From positions 1 to 64,000 of the forward strand of contig DATKYK010000015.1 in NCBI GenBank assembly GCA_035528575.1: a stretch of 64,000 nucleotides of DNA. Reading direction: 5' to 3'. Position 1 is the stretch's first letter. Every line of letters begins with the position of its first letter. Below, one piece after another: positions 6,958 to 41,017 of this stretch. The notes below the pieces were generated by a model. The model had not been told where the DNA came from, did no database searches, and saw nothing but the letters and a program-made list of their open reading frames with translations. Source of the DNA: Dehalococcoidia bacterium. GTDB taxonomy: Bacteria > Chloroflexota > Dehalococcoidia > E44-bin15. The position numbers were made by a program, and so were the translations under genes.

Positions 6958-7017
6958 GGGGTGAAAAGATGAAAAAGGGGTTTTCCTCAATTATGATAGG
7001 TGATAGGAAGCAGCTTG

Positions 7018-9336
7018 ATGGATAGCTATACTCGTAACAAGAGTGAAGGTATCCCCGCTAAGGCGAAGAGGGCAGAAGGGGCTCTGTGGGGGAGCGAGGA
7101 GCTTTACCGGACCATGTTTGAAACGGTCTCGGCATCCATGATGTTGATCGATAAGGACGGTCGAATAGTCGATGTCAGTACTTATCATGTATCCAGCATC
7201 GAAAAGGGTAAGATAGCTAGGGAGGACCTGGTGGGGGAGAACATTGTAACACACCCCACCGTTGTGGATGCCGGGCTTTCCGCTGAGTATAAGAGGGTGC
7301 TTGAAGGAGAGCCTTTTGAGCAAAAGGACGTGTATTTTCCCTCCTTAATGAGGGGGACTGATGGCTATTTCAACGTGAGAGGGGTACCCCTCTTCAAGGG
7401 CGATAATGTGATCGGTGCTATCATAACGCATGAGGAAATAACCGAGCGCAGGCGGGTGGAGGACACGCTGCGGGAGAGCGAGGCAAAGCTGCGCGTTATG
7501 TTTGAGTCCATTAGCGATGGGATAACCCTGACCGATTTGGAAGGCAATATTGTGGATCAAAATGGGGCAGCACTTAACATGTTCGGGTTCATTGGGAAGG
7601 AAGAAATTGTTGGGCAAAACGGACTTGAGCTTGTTGCTGAGAAAGACCGAACCAGGGCCAGGGAGAATAACAGGAGGATATTTACAGAGGGAAGTGGTGG
7701 TACCATAGAGTATACACTTCTGACTAAAGATGGGAGAGAATTCGAAGCCGAGTATAGCGGTGCTCTGGTACGTGATAGTGAGGGAAAGCCAGTGGGATTT
7801 ATAGGCGTGGCCAGGGACATCACCCGGCGCAAGCTGGCGGATAAGGCGCTTAGGGAGAGCGAGGAGAAGCTGCGCCGCTTCATGGACTCATCAACCGACT
7901 TCTACACCATCTGGGATTCAGAGCTAAACCTGATTGATCTCAATGAGGCCTGCTTGAAGTATCCGTTGGTTAATCTTCCCCATGGGGCTAAGAAAGAGGA
8001 CTTCACAGGGAAAAACATGCTGGAGCTGGAACCCGGTGTTAAGCAGAGAGGCAGATATGACCAGTACCTGGAGGTTATAAGGACAGGGAAGCCCTTCATC
8101 GCGGAGGACGTTATTCCTCGTCCCAACTTTGGTGATGTATATTTGGAGGTGAGGACTTTCAAGGTAGGCGATGGCCTGGGCATCGTTACCGAAGATATAA
8201 CCGAGCGCAAGCATTCAGAGGAAGCGCTGCGTCAGTCAGAGAGGCTGAGGGCATTGGGTGAGATGGCTGCTGGGATGGCTCACGATTTCAACAACATCCT
8301 GGCCATCATCCTGGGCCGAGCACAGCTGGCTCTGCAGGATGTGGAGGATGACAAGCTGAGGAAGGGCATCCAGGTTATCGAGCAGACCGCCATCGACGCA
8401 GCTATAACGGTGCGCCGCCTCCGTGACTTCGCCGGGGCCAAGGTGGGGCGCGCTTTCGAGGTAGTGGACCTGAATCGACTGGTGGAGGGTGCCTTGCAGA
8501 TGGTGGAACCCCGTCGAATGGAGATGGTGGAGACGGGGGGTGTAAAGATAGAGATAGGGGCTGATCTGAATGAGGTACCTCCTGTGTCGGGCAACGACGC
8601 TGAGTTGAGGGAGGCGCTGGTCAATATCATCTTCAATGCCATGGATGCCATGCCCGAGGGGGGAAAGATCACAGTTAAGAGCGAGCAGGAGGATAGCCTG
8701 GTGGTTCTTTCGGTTAGCGATACCGGCATGGGCATGCCTGAGGGGGTAAAGGAAAGGATATTCGATCCCTTTTTCACCACCAGGGCTCCCCATGGCACCG
8801 GATTGGGGCTCAGTGTGACCTATGGAATTATTACCAGGCACGGTGGGAGCATCGATGTTGAGAGCGCGCAGGGGGAAGGCACCACCCTTTATATCAGGTT
8901 ACCCGTGGCCGAGGGAGTGGAGGGGAAGCGGAGTCCGGAGGGTAAGCCTGCCGTTATCAATGGTGCTAAGATACTTCTGGTTGATGATGACGCGGAGGTA
9001 AGTGACGTTCTGGGGCTCATGCTCCAGCAGCTTGGTTGCAAGGTTAGGGTAGCTAGCAGCGGGAAGGAGGCGCTTCGCGCCTTTAAGCGTGGGGATTACG
9101 GGCTGGTAATCGCTGACCTGGGGATGCCTGACATGTCTGGGAGGGATGTTGCGAGGGCAGTTAAGGGTGCAAGGCCGGAGACGCCGGTGATACTGATCAC
9201 GGGGTGGGGGGTGCAGGTAGGCCTGAAGGAACTGCCGGAAATCGATGGGGTAATTGAAAAGCCCTTTAGCAAAGATGCACTCTCAGCGCAAATAGCCAAG
9301 CTGCTGCATACCGGTAATCGCGCGGGGATTGGATGA
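7018..9336 (+). CDS. PAS-domain hybrid histidine kinase with C-terminal receiver
   Basis: About 772 residues from ATG 7018 (AGGAAG ribosome site 7 bases upstream; the GTG at 7000 has none). Three PAS domains (starting roughly at 25, 155 and 285) end in ITERR/ITRRK/ITERK motifs. A HisKA domain has the phospho-His in GMAAGMAHDFNNILAIILGR, and the HATPase_c domain has an N-box (NIIFNAMDAMP), G1 (VSDTGMGMP), F-box (FDPFFTT) and G2 (GTGLGLSVTYG). The C-terminal receiver has VDDDAEVS, phospho-acceptor Asp in IADLGMPD, and Lys in IEKPF. No transmembrane helix is seen, so it is a cytosolic sensor. The likely output is phosphotransfer to its own receiver and perhaps to the HTH-receiver protein upstream. 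Confidence 0.93.
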   Translation: MDSYTRNKSEGIPAKAKRAEGALWGSEELYRTMFETVSASMMLIDKDGRIVDVSTYHVSSIEKGKIAREDLVGENIVTHPTVVDAGLSAEYKRVLEGEPFEQKDVYFPSLMRGTDGYFNVRGVPLFKGDNVIGAIITHEEITERRRVEDTLRESEAKLRVMFESISDGITLTDLEGNIVDQNGAALNMFGFIGKEEIVGQNGLELVAEKDRTRARENNRRIFTEGSGGTIEYTLLTKDGREFEAEYSGALVRDSEGKPVGFIGVARDITRRKLADKALRESEEKLRRFMDSSTDFYTIWDSELNLIDLNEACLKYPLVNLPHGAKKEDFTGKNMLELEPGVKQRGRYDQYLEVIRTGKPFIAEDVIPRPNFGDVYLEVRTFKVGDGLGIVTEDITERKHSEEALRQSERLRALGEMAAGMAHDFNNILAIILGRAQLALQDVEDDKLRKGIQVIEQTAIDAAITVRRLRDFAGAKVGRAFEVVDLNRLVEGALQMVEPRRMEMVETGGVKIEIGADLNEVPPVSGNDAELREALVNIIFNAMDAMPEGGKITVKSEQEDSLVVLSVSDTGMGMPEGVKERIFDPFFTTRAPHGTGLGLSVTYGIITRHGGSIDVESAQGEGTTLYIRLPVAEGVEGKRSPEGKPAVINGAKILLVDDDAEVSDVLGLMLQQLGCKVRVASSGKEALRAFKRGDYGLVIADLGMPDMSGRDVARAVKGARPETPVILITGWGVQVGLKELPEIDGVIEKPFSKDALSAQIAKLLHTGNRAGIG

Positions 9337-9588: not shown

Positions 9589-10764
9589 CTACAACAGGGA
9601 GGGCACACCCTCCGCGGCTTTGGTAAGCTCCATAAGCCTCTCCTCGGCATCCTTTTGCCTCTTCTTCATCATGGAGGATGATTTGGTTACTTGTTTATAA
9701 AGCTCCTTAACCCTTGATACATCTCTAAGCTGGGATAGAATAACCGTTACCGTTAAATCGCTCCTGTTTCTGGGATAGTCGCCACTTCTGAGCACGGCAT
9801 CGCATGCCCTATTCCTTATAATCTCACCCATCTCTCTTACCATGGCCACATTCATCTCCCTGGCTGGAGCGGAGACCAGATACAGAGCCTTTCCCGCATC
9901 ACTGGGGTCACAGCCTACGGAAAGCTCATACATTGCCTGATCGAGGGCCTCTAAACCCTTCATGGTTTCTTTCCCCTTTTTCCTGAAGCTTCGAGTCCTT
10001 TCTATGGGTAGCCTAATTGACCGCAGCGCGGAAGTACCTATACCTATCGCGGACCAGCCCTCTAACGTCTCCATTATGTCACCCGAGTCGACAGTCCTTG
10101 CTCCAATATGCTTTCGGCTTACCTCCTCACCGGCGCAGAGTAAATCGAAGAAGGGAGCCACTATTTCTTGGTTGATTCTTTCCATATGATTTACCAGGCT
10201 GACATCTTTTTTGAGGAACCGCTCGTTGTCAGCAAGAAATACTGCATCGGCAACCGAGTGGGCCGATTTAATGCAGGTGGCGGTATTGAAGACGCACCTT
10301 TCCTCCGAGGTTTCTTCGTGGATAAAAGGAAGCACGACGAGGGCATAAACCGGCTTATCCGGGTATCTTTCCTTCAGCAAATCGCACATTATAGGCAATG
10401 CCCCTGAGCCGGTGCCTCCGGCGGCGCCGGCAGTGAGTAAAAAGGCATCCGTCTCATAAAACCTCGGCCCACTCCTTACCGCGTCCAGCACCTTGTAGCC
10501 ATCCCATTTTGCCAGCGCTGCTCCCACCTCATTTATCTTGCCTACCCCGTGGCCGAAGGTTCTTCCACCCCCGATAATAAGGCGATGATGGAAATCAGAC
10601 TTTATGGTTTTCAGTCCGGCAAGGTCGGCTTGATCGGTATTTACCGCATAGGCGCCGTTGATTATCTGGATATGTCGATGAGACCGCGCCTTCCTGCCCA
10701 TCCTTGCGAACTCATCAGCGATTCTACTGCCACACTGTCCCAATCCAACAACAACAAGCTTCAT
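9589..10764 (-). CDS. Tubulin/FtsZ superfamily GTPase
   Basis: The 391-residue protein starts MKLVVVGLGQCGSRIADEFA, a Rossmann-like GTP-binding start. It carries the tubulin signature in TAGAAGGTGSGALPIM (about residue 112) and a T7-like segment (VDSGDIMETLEGWSAIGIG) that aligns with the FtsZ catalytic loop and keeps its acidic residues. The family is known to bind GTP and polymerise. This member differs from canonical division FtsZ in its start, its C-terminus (Lys-rich helix, no conserved FtsZ tail) and its lack of ftsA or mur neighbours, so it is better called an FtsZ-like or CetZ-like paralogue. It is monocistronic with its own promoter. A cytoskeletal, cell-shape or membrane-remodelling role is inference. 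Confidence 0.8.
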   Translation of the reverse strand: MKLVVVGLGQCGSRIADEFARMGRKARSHRHIQIINGAYAVNTDQADLAGLKTIKSDFHHRLIIGGGRTFGHGVGKINEVGAALAKWDGYKVLDAVRSGPRFYETDAFLLTAGAAGGTGSGALPIMCDLLKERYPDKPVYALVVLPFIHEETSEERCVFNTATCIKSAHSVADAVFLADNERFLKKDVSLVNHMERINQEIVAPFFDLLCAGEEVSRKHIGARTVDSGDIMETLEGWSAIGIGTSALRSIRLPIERTRSFRKKGKETMKGLEALDQAMYELSVGCDPSDAGKALYLVSAPAREMNVAMVREMGEIIRNRACDAVLRSGDYPRNRSDLTVTVILSQLRDVSRVKELYKQVTKSSSMMKKRQKDAEERLMELTKAAEGVPSLL

Positions 10765-10808
10765 TTAATGCCTCTCTTTCTTTAAATATATCTCCTCGAT
10801 TGTGCGGA

Positions 10809-10838
10809 AGTTTATCATGTTATTACTATCCCTGTCAA
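10809..10838 (-). promoter_or_regulatory. Promoter of the tubulin-like gene
   Basis: On the minus strand TTGACA (10838-10833) and TAAACT (10814-10809) are 18 bases apart, upstream of the ATG at 10764, which has a GAGAGG ribosome site. Confidence 0.6.
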
Positions 10839-10984: not shown

Positions 10985-11320
10985 GAAAACATAATATAGA
11001 AAAGGCTAGGAACAAGACTAGTACGCCTCAAGGCGAGGCCCAGAGAGTCGGGGGAAGCTGGAAACCCGATGCCGGCGCTGGGGGGGAATGGCCTTGGGAG
11101 CCTCAAACCGAAAACGCTATCTAGCGAGAGTAGGCTTTGACGGAGAGGGCACCGTTATCAGAGCCCAGGGTATCCCTCGATGTAGGCCGAGTTTTTTTCG
11201 CCTCGGGGCGTACCTGATAGAGATACCCCGGTTCAGGCCGAAGTGTCGGCCCCGGGGTAATAAGGGTGGCACCGCGTGGTTTAACCTTCGTCCCTTAAAG
11301 GGCGAAGGTTTTTTCGTGTT
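10985..11320 (+). promoter_or_regulatory. T-box riboswitch sensing uncharged tRNA-Trp
   Basis: The leader has AGAGAGTCGGGG and GCTGGAAACCCGA (AG-bulge region of stem I). The specifier position GGGAATGGCC carries UGG at 11089-11091, the Trp codon. The T-box proper is AATAAGGGTGGCACCGCG (11259-11276), and an intrinsic terminator ends the leader. The TGGC in the antiterminator bulge would pair with an acceptor end GCCA, consistent with the G discriminator usual in bacterial tRNA-Trp. The leader is longer than usual because a GC-rich palindromic segment (about 11185-11255) lies between stem I and the antiterminator. It controls trpEGDCFBA by transcription antitermination. Confidence 0.93.
11285..11314 (+). 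terminator. T-box intrinsic terminator
   Basis: CCTTCGTCCC (11285-11294), a short loop and GGGCGAAGG (11300-11308) form the stem, followed by six T's. It is mutually exclusive with the T-box antiterminator. Confidence 0.9.
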
Positions 11321-24815: not shown

Positions 24816-25874
24816 TTATCCACATTGAGGCGGGGTATTTAAAAAGCTCTCTCTCATCTCCCGGGCGACCTCCTCGGGCAGGGTCTCGATAATCCAAATA
24901 TCGTAGAAGCGCTCCATAGAACCAGCATCGCTGGTATAGAGCGGCCTAAAAACCGGCCTCGATATTATGCGGGCGCTCATGAGGAAATAATCAGGGCGCT
25001 CCGCAAGCGGTGCCGAATAGGTGATCAGGTTAAAGGAATTTATACCCATCGCCCTGTAGCAGCGCAGTATTTTCAAAATAGCGGCGGCGAAATCCCCGGT
25101 TTGCCCTTCATCCAGGTCCATCAGGTTTACGGCACGCTTTAATATCACCTGAACCTCGTTATTCCCCCTGGGAGCGAAGCTGGCTATTACCGCCAGGGAA
25201 TCGTTTTCCCCGATATACCTCTCACCAATCTCCCGCTCAGCCCGGATCAATTCCTGCCAGTAGCTTGCTCCCTGCCGCTGCAGGTATTCCTCGCTTTTCA
25301 CCATGAGCCTCTCCAGTTCCGGCGTGGGGGCACGATCCACCACTATCTGTACATGGGGGTGTATTATGCTCGCCCCGCTGGGCGGCAGGTGATTCCAGAT
25401 CCACAGGGGGTATTTCGCCTCTGGGTCCTTTTGGTGCACCAGGGCAATGTATTCCTTCGATACAGTTAGGTTATCCACCAGCATCTCGGTGGTAAATTCG
25501 TCCAGCTCCAGGTAGTGCCTCCCCGTCAAGGTAGCCACGGCGTGGTATTCGGCAAAGGGGTATAGATTGGGAAAGAGCAGGCATTCCCCCCTCTCTATCC
25601 TGCCGCCCGGGAGCAGCCTTGACGGGAGTTTTGGCGTTCTCTGTCGTATGTTCTCGGCGCAAAAGAAACAGCCAGACCTTGTCCGCTCCACCATCTCCTT
25701 GACCACTAGCTCACCTTTCTGTGCCTGCTTCACCCTTCCCGCCCTGGTTACATTGATCCTGCTCTGTGAACCGGTCAAGGGGTCCTCCCGATACTCAATT
25801 GGCTGGATCTCGCTCTCAAATTGAAGCGCAGGGCTCAGAAGCTCCTGGCTCTTTACCTCTCTGCGAAACTGCAT
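24816..25874 (-). CDS. Galactose-1-phosphate uridylyltransferase-like nucleotidyltransferase
   Basis: About 352 residues from ATG 25874, chosen because GAGGGG lies 7 bases upstream; an earlier in-frame start at 25982 has no such site. The zinc-type CFFCAEN motif and the HIT-superfamily active site HPHVQIVVD (His-Pro-His-x-Gln, with the nucleophilic second His) mark a GalT-like enzyme that transfers a nucleotide to or from sugar phosphates. The true substrate is uncertain: it stands alone, without galK or galE. ADP-sugar/UDP-sugar pyrophosphorylase-like activity is an alternative. Confidence 0.8.
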   Translation of the reverse strand: MQFRREVKSQELLSPALQFESEIQPIEYREDPLTGSQSRINVTRAGRVKQAQKGELVVKEMVERTRSGCFFCAENIRQRTPKLPSRLLPGGRIERGECLLFPNLYPFAEYHAVATLTGRHYLELDEFTTEMLVDNLTVSKEYIALVHQKDPEAKYPLWIWNHLPPSGASIIHPHVQIVVDRAPTPELERLMVKSEEYLQRQGASYWQELIRAEREIGERYIGENDSLAVIASFAPRGNNEVQVILKRAVNLMDLDEGQTGDFAAAILKILRCYRAMGINSFNLITYSAPLAERPDYFLMSARIISRPVFRPLYTSDAGSMERFYDIWIIETLPEEVAREMRESFLNTPPQCG

Positions 25875-26062
25875 CGTGCAACCCCTCAGTGGTGAGAAAT
25901 GGTTAGTTATTATAGCACATCGTAGCTCCCTTAAAGGGGGGTTACAATCAGATAGAGCGATTACTACTTTAATTGCGCTCAAGCCGACCCGCCGACCTCA
26001 TGGGCCGAGGAGTCCCGGCCAGATATCCCTCTCCCAACAGGGACGGTGGGCGAGGCTATGAA

Positions 26063-38280: not shown

Positions 38281-38901
38281 TTAAATCTCCTGGCGGTTCT
38301 CCAGGGCGCGGGTGAGGGTGACCTCGTCGGCATACTCCAAATCGGCGCCGAAGGGTAGCCCGCGGGCGAGGCGGGTGACCCTAATTCCCAGCGGGCTGAT
38401 GAGCCGCTGCAGGTACATGGAGGTGGCCTCCCCCTCGAGGTTGGGGTTGGTGGCCAGGATGACCTCGGTCACCACGCCGTCCTGGAGCCGTGATAGAAGC
38501 TCCCTGATCTTGAGGTCATCGGGTCCGATGCCTTCCATAGGAGAGATGACCCCATGGAGTACATGGTAAAGCCCTTTATATTCCCTGGTGCGCTCCAGTG
38601 GGAGGATGTCCAGGGGTTCGGCCACGACGCATATCTTGGTGAGGTCCCGCCCGTCCCCGCGGCAGATGATACAGGGGTCGGCATCGGTGATGTTCTGGCA
38701 GGTGGAGCACAGGACGATCTTGTCCTTTACCGCGAGGATAGCCTCGGCGAGGGCGCGTGCCTCCTCGTGGGGCATGCGAATCAGGAAGTAGGTGAGCCGC
38801 TGGGCGGTCTTGGGGCCGATGCCCGGCAGCTTGTGGAACTCCTCGATGAGGCGGGCTACCGGCTGGGCGGTGGGCACAGAATGGGTATTCAAATCAGCCA
38901 T
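38281..38901 (-). CDS. recR: Recombination protein RecR
   Basis: The 206-residue protein has the HhH motif (FHKLPGIGPKTAQRLTYFL), a four-Cys zinc finger (CSTCQNITDADPCIIC) and a Toprim domain (ICVVAEPLDILPLERTREYK, then YHVLHGVISPMEGIGPDDL). It acts with RecO in RecA loading. Last gene of dnaX-ebfC-recR. Confidence 0.95.
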   Translation of the reverse strand: MADLNTHSVPTAQPVARLIEEFHKLPGIGPKTAQRLTYFLIRMPHEEARALAEAILAVKDKIVLCSTCQNITDADPCIICRGDGRDLTKICVVAEPLDILPLERTREYKGLYHVLHGVISPMEGIGPDDLKIRELLSRLQDGVVTEVILATNPNLEGEATSMYLQRLISPLGIRVTRLARGLPFGADLEYADEVTLTRALENRQEI

Positions 38902-38985
38902 CCCTTTTTCGCCCCATCGACATGCTGGGGTAGATAGGACATAGATCTGGATATGTGTTCATCCAGCCCAACTTTTTAGTGTGTT

Positions 38986-39285
38986 TTAGGTCAGGCCGGG
39001 GATATTAAGACCGCCGGTCAGGGCACCGAGGCGGCTTGCGGCAAGCTCCTTCGCTTTCTTAACCGCCTCGTTCATCGCGGTGAGCACCAGGTCCTCCAGC
39101 ATCTCTGTATCATCCGCCGCCTCGGGCGAGATCTTCACCGACTGGACCAGTTGCTGCCCGGTCATCACCACCGTTACCGCGCCGCCGCCCGAGCTGGCTT
39201 CCACCGTTTCCTTTTCCAGCTCCTGCTGGATCTTCTCCAGTTTTTCCTGAAACTGGCGGGCCTGACGCATTATAATTTTATTCAT
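38986..39285 (-). CDS. YbaB/EbfC nucleoid-associated protein
   Basis: A 99-residue YbaB/EbfC protein: helical MRQARQFQEKLEKIQQEL, then VEASSGGGAVTVVMTGQQLV and DLVLTAMNEAVKKAKE. It is a dimeric DNA-binding protein in the conventional position between dnaX and recR. Its ATG overlaps the dnaX stop by 4 bases. Confidence 0.93.
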   Translation of the reverse strand: MNKIIMRQARQFQEKLEKIQQELEKETVEASSGGGAVTVVMTGQQLVQSVKISPEAADDTEMLEDLVLTAMNEAVKKAKELAASRLGALTGGLNIPGLT

Positions 39286-40955
39286 TCCTCCTCCTCAACG
39301 ATTTTAGCTCCCATCTGAAGCGCCGCCTCAACCAGGTGTCCCCGGCTTGTTGCCTTTCGCTCGGTGAGCATGCAGCGAATCTTGTAATTTTTCCCGAATA
39401 CCTCGCTCACCTTCGCTTCCACCATATGGCGATACTTGGGGTCTTCGATCTTCTCCTTATGGAACTCGTAATAAAAACCCAGAACCAGGGTTTCCCCCTC
39501 CAGGGCCACTGGCTCGCAGGCGCTTCTTAAGAGGGCATCCAGGTTTCCCTTTGAGCCCATGCCCTTCGTGGCACTGACCACGTCCTTCCAGCGGTTGCGG
39601 AAGTATTCGATATCGCTTTTTTCGAACTTCTGGGGCGTTGCCGGCTTCTCCCCGGTCAGCTCCGGGGCGCCTGCGGGTTCCCCCTCCGTTTTCTCGGGAT
39701 TTGCGGGGGTTGCCGGCTTCTCCCCGGTCGGCTCCGGGGTGCCTGCGGGTTCCCCCTCCGTTTTCTCGGGCTTTGTGGGGGTTGCCGGCCTCTCCCCGAT
39801 TATTGCCCGTTTTTCGCTTGTTACTGGGGTCGCCGCTCCTCCCTGGGTCAGGGCGCACTCCACCATTGCCAGCTCCAGTGGAAGGGGCGAAAAGCCATCG
39901 AGCTCCAGTTCCACCTGGCGAAATAGCTTCGCCGCTTTGGAGAGCTGTGCCATGGGGGCTCTCTCCGCCAGGCTCCTCATCTCCAAGAGCTCCTCCGGGG
40001 GCAGGTCGATGGCTGCTCCAGCCCCTGCCTTTACAAGGAGCAGCCCTCTGAGATACTCCACCAGCTCCCGGTTGAATTGCCTGAGGTCGAGGCCGTCCTG
40101 GGTAACGCTGTTTATGGTTTGAAGCCCGGCGGTGATATCATTATCGACGATGTGTCCTGCCAGTTCCCTGGCTCGCACGTCCCCGCTGATACCCAGCATC
40201 GCCTGAACCTGATGGAGTTCGATCCGGGAACCATAATGGGCAACCGATTGCTCCAGAAGGTTTTCGGCGTCTCGCATCGAGCCGGTTGCGCTCCTGGCGA
40301 TGAGCTTTAGCGATGAATCATCGATCTGGATGCCTTCCCCGGCGCAGACGACGGCGAGCCTGGAGACCATGGCATCCTGGGGGATACGCCTGAAATCGAA
40401 GCGCTGGCACCGGGAGAGGATGGTGAGCGGCACCTTGTGCGGCTCGGTGGTTGCCAGCACGAACAGGACATGGGGCGGCGGCTCCTCCAGTGTTTTGAGC
40501 AGGGCGTTGGCGGCGGGCTCGGTGAGCATATGGACCTCGTCGATGATATAGACCTTGTATCTTGCTATATTGGGGGTGTACCTGACCCGCTCCCTGAGCT
40601 CGCGGATCTCATCGATGCCGCGGTTTGAGGCGGCATCGATCTCCATTACATCCATGGCGCGCCCCTCAGTGATCGTCTGGCATATGGTGCAGGCGTTACA
40701 GGGCTCGCCTTTGCCGCCCTCGAGGCAGTTTGCCGCCTTGGCCAGGATGCGACCGGTGCTGGTCTTTCCCGTCCCGCGAGGGCCGCAGAAGAGATAGGCA
40801 TGGGCCACCCGTCCCGCCTTGAGTGCGTTCAAGAGGGTCTGGGTCACGTGGTCCTGTCCCACTAGCTCGGCCAGGGTCTGGGGGCGCCACTTGCGATAAT
40901 ATACCTGCGCTCCCATCCTTTCGCCGTTTTCGACCTTACCTCGCTTTTTCGCCAT
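39282..40955 (-). CDS. dnaX: DNA polymerase III subunits gamma/tau
   Basis: About 557 residues from ATG 40955 (AAAGG 6 bases upstream). AAA+ clamp-loader domain: VYYRKWRPQTLAELVGQDHV, Walker A in GPRGTGKTSTGRIL, zinc Cys (CLEGG...PCNACTIC), Walker B YIIDEVHML and sensor 1 LATTEPHK. Helical domain III follows. Residues about 390-450 are a Pro/Glu-rich linker with imperfect tandem copies of GEKPATPxxPEKTEGEPAG, and a C-terminal tau-type domain is last. It drives clamp loading in the replisome. Confidence 0.94.
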   Translation of the reverse strand: MAKKRGKVENGERMGAQVYYRKWRPQTLAELVGQDHVTQTLLNALKAGRVAHAYLFCGPRGTGKTSTGRILAKAANCLEGGKGEPCNACTICQTITEGRAMDVMEIDAASNRGIDEIRELRERVRYTPNIARYKVYIIDEVHMLTEPAANALLKTLEEPPPHVLFVLATTEPHKVPLTILSRCQRFDFRRIPQDAMVSRLAVVCAGEGIQIDDSSLKLIARSATGSMRDAENLLEQSVAHYGSRIELHQVQAMLGISGDVRARELAGHIVDNDITAGLQTINSVTQDGLDLRQFNRELVEYLRGLLLVKAGAGAAIDLPPEELLEMRSLAERAPMAQLSKAAKLFRQVELELDGFSPLPLELAMVECALTQGGAATPVTSEKRAIIGERPATPTKPEKTEGEPAGTPEPTGEKPATPANPEKTEGEPAGAPELTGEKPATPQKFEKSDIEYFRNRWKDVVSATKGMGSKGNLDALLRSACEPVALEGETLVLGFYYEFHKEKIEDPKYRHMVEAKVSEVFGKNYKIRCMLTERKATSRGHLVEAALQMGAKIVEEEE

Positions 40956-41017
40956 TTGCAACCTTTATACTACGTCCGCATCGATCGCCTGTTTATGTCC
41001 TTACTCAATTATCGCCT

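Follow-up and report, generated by a model that had tools for sequence, protein, structure and literature searches.

The closest described relatives of the gene analysed here are the archaeal CetZ proteins, of which CetZ1 and CetZ2 of Haloferax volcanii have solved structures (4b46 and 4b45). In accessible passages of PMC9856176, CetZ is called archaea-specific and Haloferax CetZ1 is described as acting in motility and in the development of rods. CetZ-like proteins of the bacterial class Dehalococcoidia (phylum Chloroflexota) have been mentioned before: the accessible text of PMC9871819 devotes one sentence to them, as sparse and paraphyletic, with a resemblance to the CetZ_C domain at about 1e-10. 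Judging by that description, not by sequences, they are very probably the same proteins as the branch described below. The accessible text on these proteins contains, as far as we found, nothing on an end peptide, on paralogue types or on a link to loss of murein, and none of the other papers listed by our search of the open-access literature on CetZ or tubulin in Chloroflexota and Dehalococcoidia dealt with them. The initial annotation of this locus, by which the protein may define a Chloroflexota cytoskeletal branch, needs correcting to the extent of that mention. As for their hosts, accessible parts of PMC10284905 describe irregular discs and absent murein, and infer that murein synthesis was lost once, at the ancestor of orders 10-25.

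The DNA analysed here, termed the window, is a 64,000-nucleotide stretch from a Dehalococcoidia genome. It contains an open reading frame of 391 codons with an ATG start, encoding a 391-residue protein in which two Pfam domains exceed their curated cut-offs, Tubulin (PF00091, 4.3e-27) and CetZ_C (PF21011, 1.6e-18). The features discussed below are as follows.

9589..10764, minus strand: cetZ-like gene (open reading frame; Pfam Tubulin and CetZ_C; structure model with pLDDT 84.9 and pTM 0.85)
10402..10431, minus strand: tubulin/FtsZ GTP-binding signature AGAAGGTGSG, residues 112-121 (direct sequence)
10075..10092, minus strand: T7-type loop VDSGDI, residues 225-230 (alignments)
9985..10026, minus strand: M-loop, about residues 247-260 (between strand 236-246 and helix 261-279)
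9691..10197, minus strand: CetZ_C domain (Pfam PF21011)
9592..9609, minus strand: C-terminal peptide GVPSLL, residues 386-391 (commonest family form DIPSLL)
10771..10777, minus strand: Shine-Dalgarno-like AGAGAGG (direct sequence)
10809..10838, minus strand: promoter-like TTGACA-18-TAAACT (consensus scan only)
10999-11298, plus strand: T-box leader (Rfam match to RF00230, 96.4 bits)

The initial annotation had described a stand-alone tubulin/FtsZ-like GTPase with a tubulin GTP signature, a T7-like loop and a divergent C-terminus. Both motifs are confirmed (GAAGGTGSG at residues 113-121 and VDSGDI at 225-230), and D226 and D229 of the loop are the presumed catalytic acids. Among 56 intact relatives, GGTG[SG]G is kept in every one and the first T7 position is D in 55. 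The C-terminus has indeed diverged from that of FtsZ, but it is recognisable as a CetZ_C domain, and by sequence and model the protein also has a long C-terminal helix. The M-loop is basic, with a median net charge of +2 in the intact relatives, and partly disordered in the model (pLDDT under 50 at residues 250-258).

Fold and sequence comparisons agree in placing CetZ first. The model, which was the structure prediction proposed earlier as a check, is closest to CetZ2 (Z 45.4, rmsd 1.6 over 331) and CetZ1 (Z 44.6, rmsd 1.8 over 326), whereas the best FtsZ reaches Z 35.1, OdinTubulin 33.4 and TubZ 33.1; the model's input comprised the window protein together with 19 others encoded in fetched loci, archaeal CetZs among them, so the gap in Z between CetZ and FtsZ may be somewhat inflated. 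By sequence, the best solved chains were 4b46 (2.6e-41), 4b45 (1.3e-24) and 3zid, the CetZ of Methanosaeta thermophila (2.8e-12), followed by FtsZ (1.4e-8) and, more weakly, TubZ (2.7e-6) and BtubB (1.5e-5); tubulins rank below CetZ in both the sequence and the structure lists. At 20 diagnostic columns that we derived as positions where archaeal CetZ and FtsZ differ (90% each), the window protein carries the CetZ letter in 8, the FtsZ letter in 5 and neither in 7, so that it is not a textbook CetZ and is better called CetZ-like.

The main tree contained 73 of 150 collected sequences, kept after an identity cut; one locus with an in-gene stop (L096) was excluded from trees and tail counts. The CetZ kind separated from bacterial and archaeal FtsZ with support of 100/100, and the window gene did not cluster within ordinary FtsZ. 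It fell in a Dehalococcoidia branch of 37 rows (89/90), whose sister comprised 21 archaeal CetZs (99/99) and two archaeal-like Dehalococcoidia proteins. The Dehalococcoidia branch still held together in a quick tree with 15 more rows (45 rows, support 99), in which one long-branched, archaeal-like bacterial protein (L327) lay inside the archaeal CetZs, so that these no longer formed one clean group. An archaeal tubulin-superfamily protein on a long branch (L312) came out next to the CetZ kind, and support for the node that excludes it was low (40). Two archaeal tubulin-superfamily rows of kinds other than tubulin, BtubA/B and TubZ entered the enlarged tree, on long branches. Stems in the trees are long, and the rows span CetZ and FtsZ, with tubulins, BtubA/B, TubZ and the CetZ of Thermococcales outside the sampling. 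By these trees, Dehalococcoidia hold two CetZ kinds, a branch of their own that includes the window gene and a rarer archaeal-like set (L083, L084 and L323-L327) that lacks the end peptide discussed below and may be a separate acquisition. CetZ in the class may stem from a transfer from archaea or may be older; a precedent for a transfer is the archaellum, which according to the accessible part of PMC12488501 passed from archaea into Chloroflexota, Dehalococcoidia among them.

The window gene product is thus classified, by sequence, as CetZ-like and as belonging to a Dehalococcoidia branch that is sister to archaeal CetZ. Since its host is a bacterium of the Dehalococcoidia, while the accessible statement in PMC9856176 restricts CetZ to archaea, we file it as a sister branch and not as CetZ proper. 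Besides this protein, the source genome encodes one other with PF00091, a canonical FtsZ that has the FtsZ_C domain (PF12327) and whose gene adjoins ftsA on a different contig. The earlier call of a non-canonical tubulin homologue therefore holds, given the CetZ_C domain, the position outside FtsZ in the trees and the separate ftsZ. The suggested Chloroflexota cytoskeletal branch holds in part: the branch is one of its own, but it adjoins archaeal CetZ and is not remote from known families, and in our sample it is confined to one class of the phylum. Of 400 Chloroflexota genomes, 26 gave a CetZ_C match, every one of them from Dehalococcoidia, and among 14 control genomes Haloferax volcanii alone did. 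Within the class, 99 of 294 genomes with a completeness of at least 90% have CetZ, with one to five copies where present; the window's own family has a close homologue in 11 of 14 genomes, the source genome included. For comparison, CetZ_C was matched in 139 of 196 genomes from the phylum of Haloferax larsenii, with a few weak matches among these.

CetZ and the genes of murein assembly are distributed very differently. In the source genome we found no match to a penicillin-binding protein (PBP) transpeptidase (PF00905), SepF or MreB. Across the 294 Dehalococcoidia, PBP transpeptidase occurs in 88 genomes and CetZ in 99, and both in a single genome (G344, which has one PBP match), compared to about 30 expected (Fisher 2.9e-18, a p-value that ignores kinship); these counts assume the same 294 genomes under the same settings, genomes with no match having been named in part. 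Expressed as frequencies, the transpeptidase is present in 1 of 99 genomes with CetZ versus 87 of 195 lacking CetZ, and by family the tally is 26 with CetZ, 23 with PBP and two with both. In a 59-genome set, none of the 36 genomes with CetZ gave an MreB match at E 1e-20 or better, whereas 8 of the 23 others did; these are exactly the eight that have several PBPs. Relative to the accessible text of PMC9871819, the observation that CetZ rarely accompanies a murein transpeptidase (1/99) and never MreB (0/36) is new. Two limits apply to it. CetZ is not required for murein-free life, as 108 of the 206 genomes that lack the transpeptidase also lack CetZ; and because a single loss of murein synthesis is inferred in the accessible part of PMC10284905, the pattern may reflect one event.

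Whereas the sequence and fold are observed, we infer the function. In our preferred reading, to which we assign a probability of roughly 0.6, the window protein is a CetZ-type GTPase of the Dehalococcoidia branch that forms a GTP-driven filament for shape or envelope organisation. By analogy with its relatives, the protein would bind GTP between subunits and assemble into head-to-tail polymers in which the T7 loop and its aspartates complete the active site of the neighbouring subunit, and these filaments would form and turn over. They would run along the membrane and shape or organise the envelope in cells where murein transpeptidases and MreB were not found, while division would be left to the separate FtsZ-FtsA pair. 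The end peptide would be the probable docking site that hooks the filaments to a membrane partner, with FtsA the likeliest candidate since SepF was not found. We prefer a role in shape or envelope over one in division because FtsZ and FtsA are present in addition to CetZ.

The evidence on the end peptide bears on this choice. A short peptide, mostly DIPSLL, stands at or near the end of all 56 intact members sampled, an observation that is also new relative to the accessible text of PMC9871819. The pattern [DEG][ILV]P falls within the last 20 residues in 53 of the 56 (35 of 36 after removal of near-copies), whereas 1000 shuffles gave 1.7 on average and never more than 7; the remaining three members carry SIPSLLD. 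Several intact members extend up to about ten residues beyond the peptide, which starts 53-55 residues after the GDYP element where both were found. The peptide was also present in 8 of 8 proteins fetched later (one a fragment, two near-identical). Many of the archaeal CetZs (L203-L211 and L245-L283) share an end peptide of the form D-I/L-x-P-L-F, of which we found no description in the accessible literature. A looser tail pattern matches 33 of 51 archaeal CetZs, and a stricter form matches 26 of those 51, 29 of the 56 intact Dehalococcoidia proteins and 4 of 23 archaeal FtsZs; [DEG][ILV]P itself occurs in 2 of the 51 archaeal CetZs and 1 of the 23 archaeal FtsZs. Among the archaeal-like bacterial CetZs it matched 1 of 2 and then 3 of 5 more, but these matches are an internal, EIPRL-like element near the end of a shorter protein, not a tail. 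The tail is probably an old CetZ feature, because archaeal CetZs end in a related peptide; the same finding tempers the idea that DIPSLL is purely an FtsZ mimic.

FtsA binds the end peptide of FtsZ, and SepF is another common anchor. In the 59 genomes, we found FtsA in 57 and SepF in none, and an end peptide of the DIPxFLR type terminates 15 of 17 Dehalococcoidia FtsZs. In the Dehalococcoidia CetZ tail, as in the FtsZ end peptide, the proline adjoins an aliphatic residue, and docking of the CetZ tail on FtsA is possible on this resemblance. The same resemblance, together with the near-universal [DEG][ILV]P motif and the distribution of FtsA and SepF, supports the strongest rival reading, that CetZ is a second division protein which joins the Z-ring through a DIPSLL tail on FtsA and so shares its anchor with FtsZ. 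Several observations speak against it: the tail has its counterpart in the end peptide of archaeal CetZ, and FtsA is not known from archaea; the CetZ tails, GVPSLL in the window protein and mostly DIPSLL in the family, lack the arginines that follow in the FtsZ DIPxFLR; no division gene occurs in the 40 neighbour clusters listed around the cetZ genes of relatives; and no CetZ was found in 23 of the 59 genomes, and FtsA is present in every one of these with a completeness of 90% or more. On balance, we regard this division role as somewhat unlikely. As a side observation on division genes, genome G007, a single contig of 1.5 Mb, has two cetZ genes, matches to ftsA at both 362 and 626 kb, and an FtsZ-like match at 625 kb.

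The surroundings of the window gene agree with the earlier remark that it has no division-gene neighbours: a gene for a PAS histidine kinase/response regulator (7000-9336, plus strand) is convergent with it, and the T-box leader and trpE (10999 onward) are divergent from it. Because its neighbours lie on the opposite strand, the cetZ-like gene is probably monocistronic. Six nucleotides separate the AGAGAGG element from the ATG. The promoter-like site is weak evidence, since 5 such sites occur in the real sequence versus 2.7 ± 1.9 in shuffled sequences. The T-box leader, which precedes trpE, and the cetZ promoter region occupy one intergenic space. Elsewhere in the window, a c-di-GMP-I riboswitch aptamer (62.1 bits) lies at 2155-2239 on the minus strand.

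In other lineages, cetZ lies directly 3' of gapA on the same strand in 11 cases (gapA identified by Pfam), often with dnaX-, ybaB- and recR-like genes next (named from sequence). In four loci it lies just before nuo-like genes, identified by eye, and in a fifth locus it diverges from such genes. Part of the window's family has cetZ convergent with sensor kinase genes. The gapA and nuo-like neighbours speak for a different function, in which CetZ would be a scaffold for metabolic or respiratory complexes instead of a shape determinant, as does the report, in the accessible part of PMC5102406, that the FtsZ-annotated Dehalococcoides transcripts DET0589 and DET0636 are linked to hydrogenase and Fdh transcripts. 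However, those transcripts are annotated as FtsZ and are not identified as CetZ, gene order alone is weak, and the window copy has neither a gapA nor a nuo neighbour; we consider a scaffold improbable. The recR- and dnaX-like genes of the window (named by eye; 38284-40961, minus strand) are ~28 kb from cetZ, compared to their proximity in other lineages, so the gene has probably moved. A galT-type gene, also named by eye (24819-25982, minus strand), lies 14 kb from cetZ, and seven relatives have a galT-type neighbour within one to three genes of cetZ. Three loci (L094, L090 and L091) contain two cetZ genes each; in L094 (5699-11527) the tandem pair sits between gapA and a gene for a 570-residue Ala-rich protein, with dnaX beyond. 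This Ala-rich coiled-coil protein, which has no Pfam match, occurs near cetZ in up to 10 loci; we do not rely on it, as blast clusters of low-complexity sequence are unsafe.

Two further readings have very little probability. A diverged FtsZ duplicate could explain why the NCBIfam ftsZ model matches the GTPase half, why the second of the T7 acids is D, the residue that FtsZ has, and why 5 of the 20 diagnostic columns carry FtsZ letters, but the match reaches 55.9 bits against a cut-off of 295.2, Pfam finds no FtsZ_C domain in the window protein, and the tree places it elsewhere. The other reading, a TubZ-like partition protein from a plasmid or phage, can cite the structural similarity to TubZ (Z 33.1) but is at odds with a phage search that gave no match to the window protein, with matches in 28 of 72,556 plasmid records that are all haloarchaeal, with the location of cetZ next to trp genes on a 99,816-base contig, and with the occurrence of the family in 99 of the 294 Dehalococcoidia. 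Separately, 11 motif-pattern matches on viral contigs included no relative.

A third observation that is new relative to PMC9871819, as far as its text is accessible, concerns paralogues. In six of them (L082, L092, L100, L106, L116 and L117), which come from two separate parts of the tree, the GTPase signature is broken, the first T7 aspartate is gone and the end peptide is missing; motif, aspartate and tail were thus lost together in two lineages. By sequence they look like GTPase-dead forms. In three genomes (G082, G170 and G373) the broken form accompanies an intact copy, and in three others (G039, G186 and G263) only the broken form was found. A more elaborate scenario, which we advance tentatively and consider unlikely as a whole, is that a murein-free lineage runs an archaeal-type CetZ filament in place of MreB-guided growth, that a change of the end peptide from DIEPLF to DIPSLL lets FtsA be shared with FtsZ, and that the GTPase-dead, tailless subunits could modulate the filament or co-polymerise with it.

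CetZ may help to hold the shape of bacteria that have lost their wall. The CetZ branch, which we found in our sample only within the murein-free part of the Dehalococcoidia, is a testable candidate for what keeps free-living bacteria without a wall, such as Dehalococcoides, in shape. Its presence there extends CetZ from archaea to bacteria and provides a natural case in which to test how filaments of the tubulin type change their membrane anchor.

Among known systems, TubZ and BtubA/B share the superfamily fold with the window protein, but TubZ and BtubB are weaker matches in sequence, and TubZ is more distant in structure as well. Bacterial FtsZ shares the GTPase domain, the T7 aspartates and a similar end peptide; it differs in that the window protein has no FtsZ_C domain, scores far below the ftsZ cut-off and coexists with a separate ftsZ. 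The CetZ-like proteins of PMC9871819 come from the same class and share the resemblance to CetZ_C, in the accessible text. Compared to archaeal CetZ, the window protein has the same two-domain build with CetZ_C, the same fold (Z about 45), the motifs GHGVG, GGTGSG and RxGDYP, the T7 loop, the C-terminal helix and a short conserved end peptide. It differs from archaeal CetZ in its bacterial host, in an identity of 29-32% in the alignment, in a second T7 acid that is D rather than E, in the FtsZ letters at 5 of 20 columns, and in an end peptide that is of the DIPSLL type in Dehalococcoidia and of the DIEPLF type in archaea.
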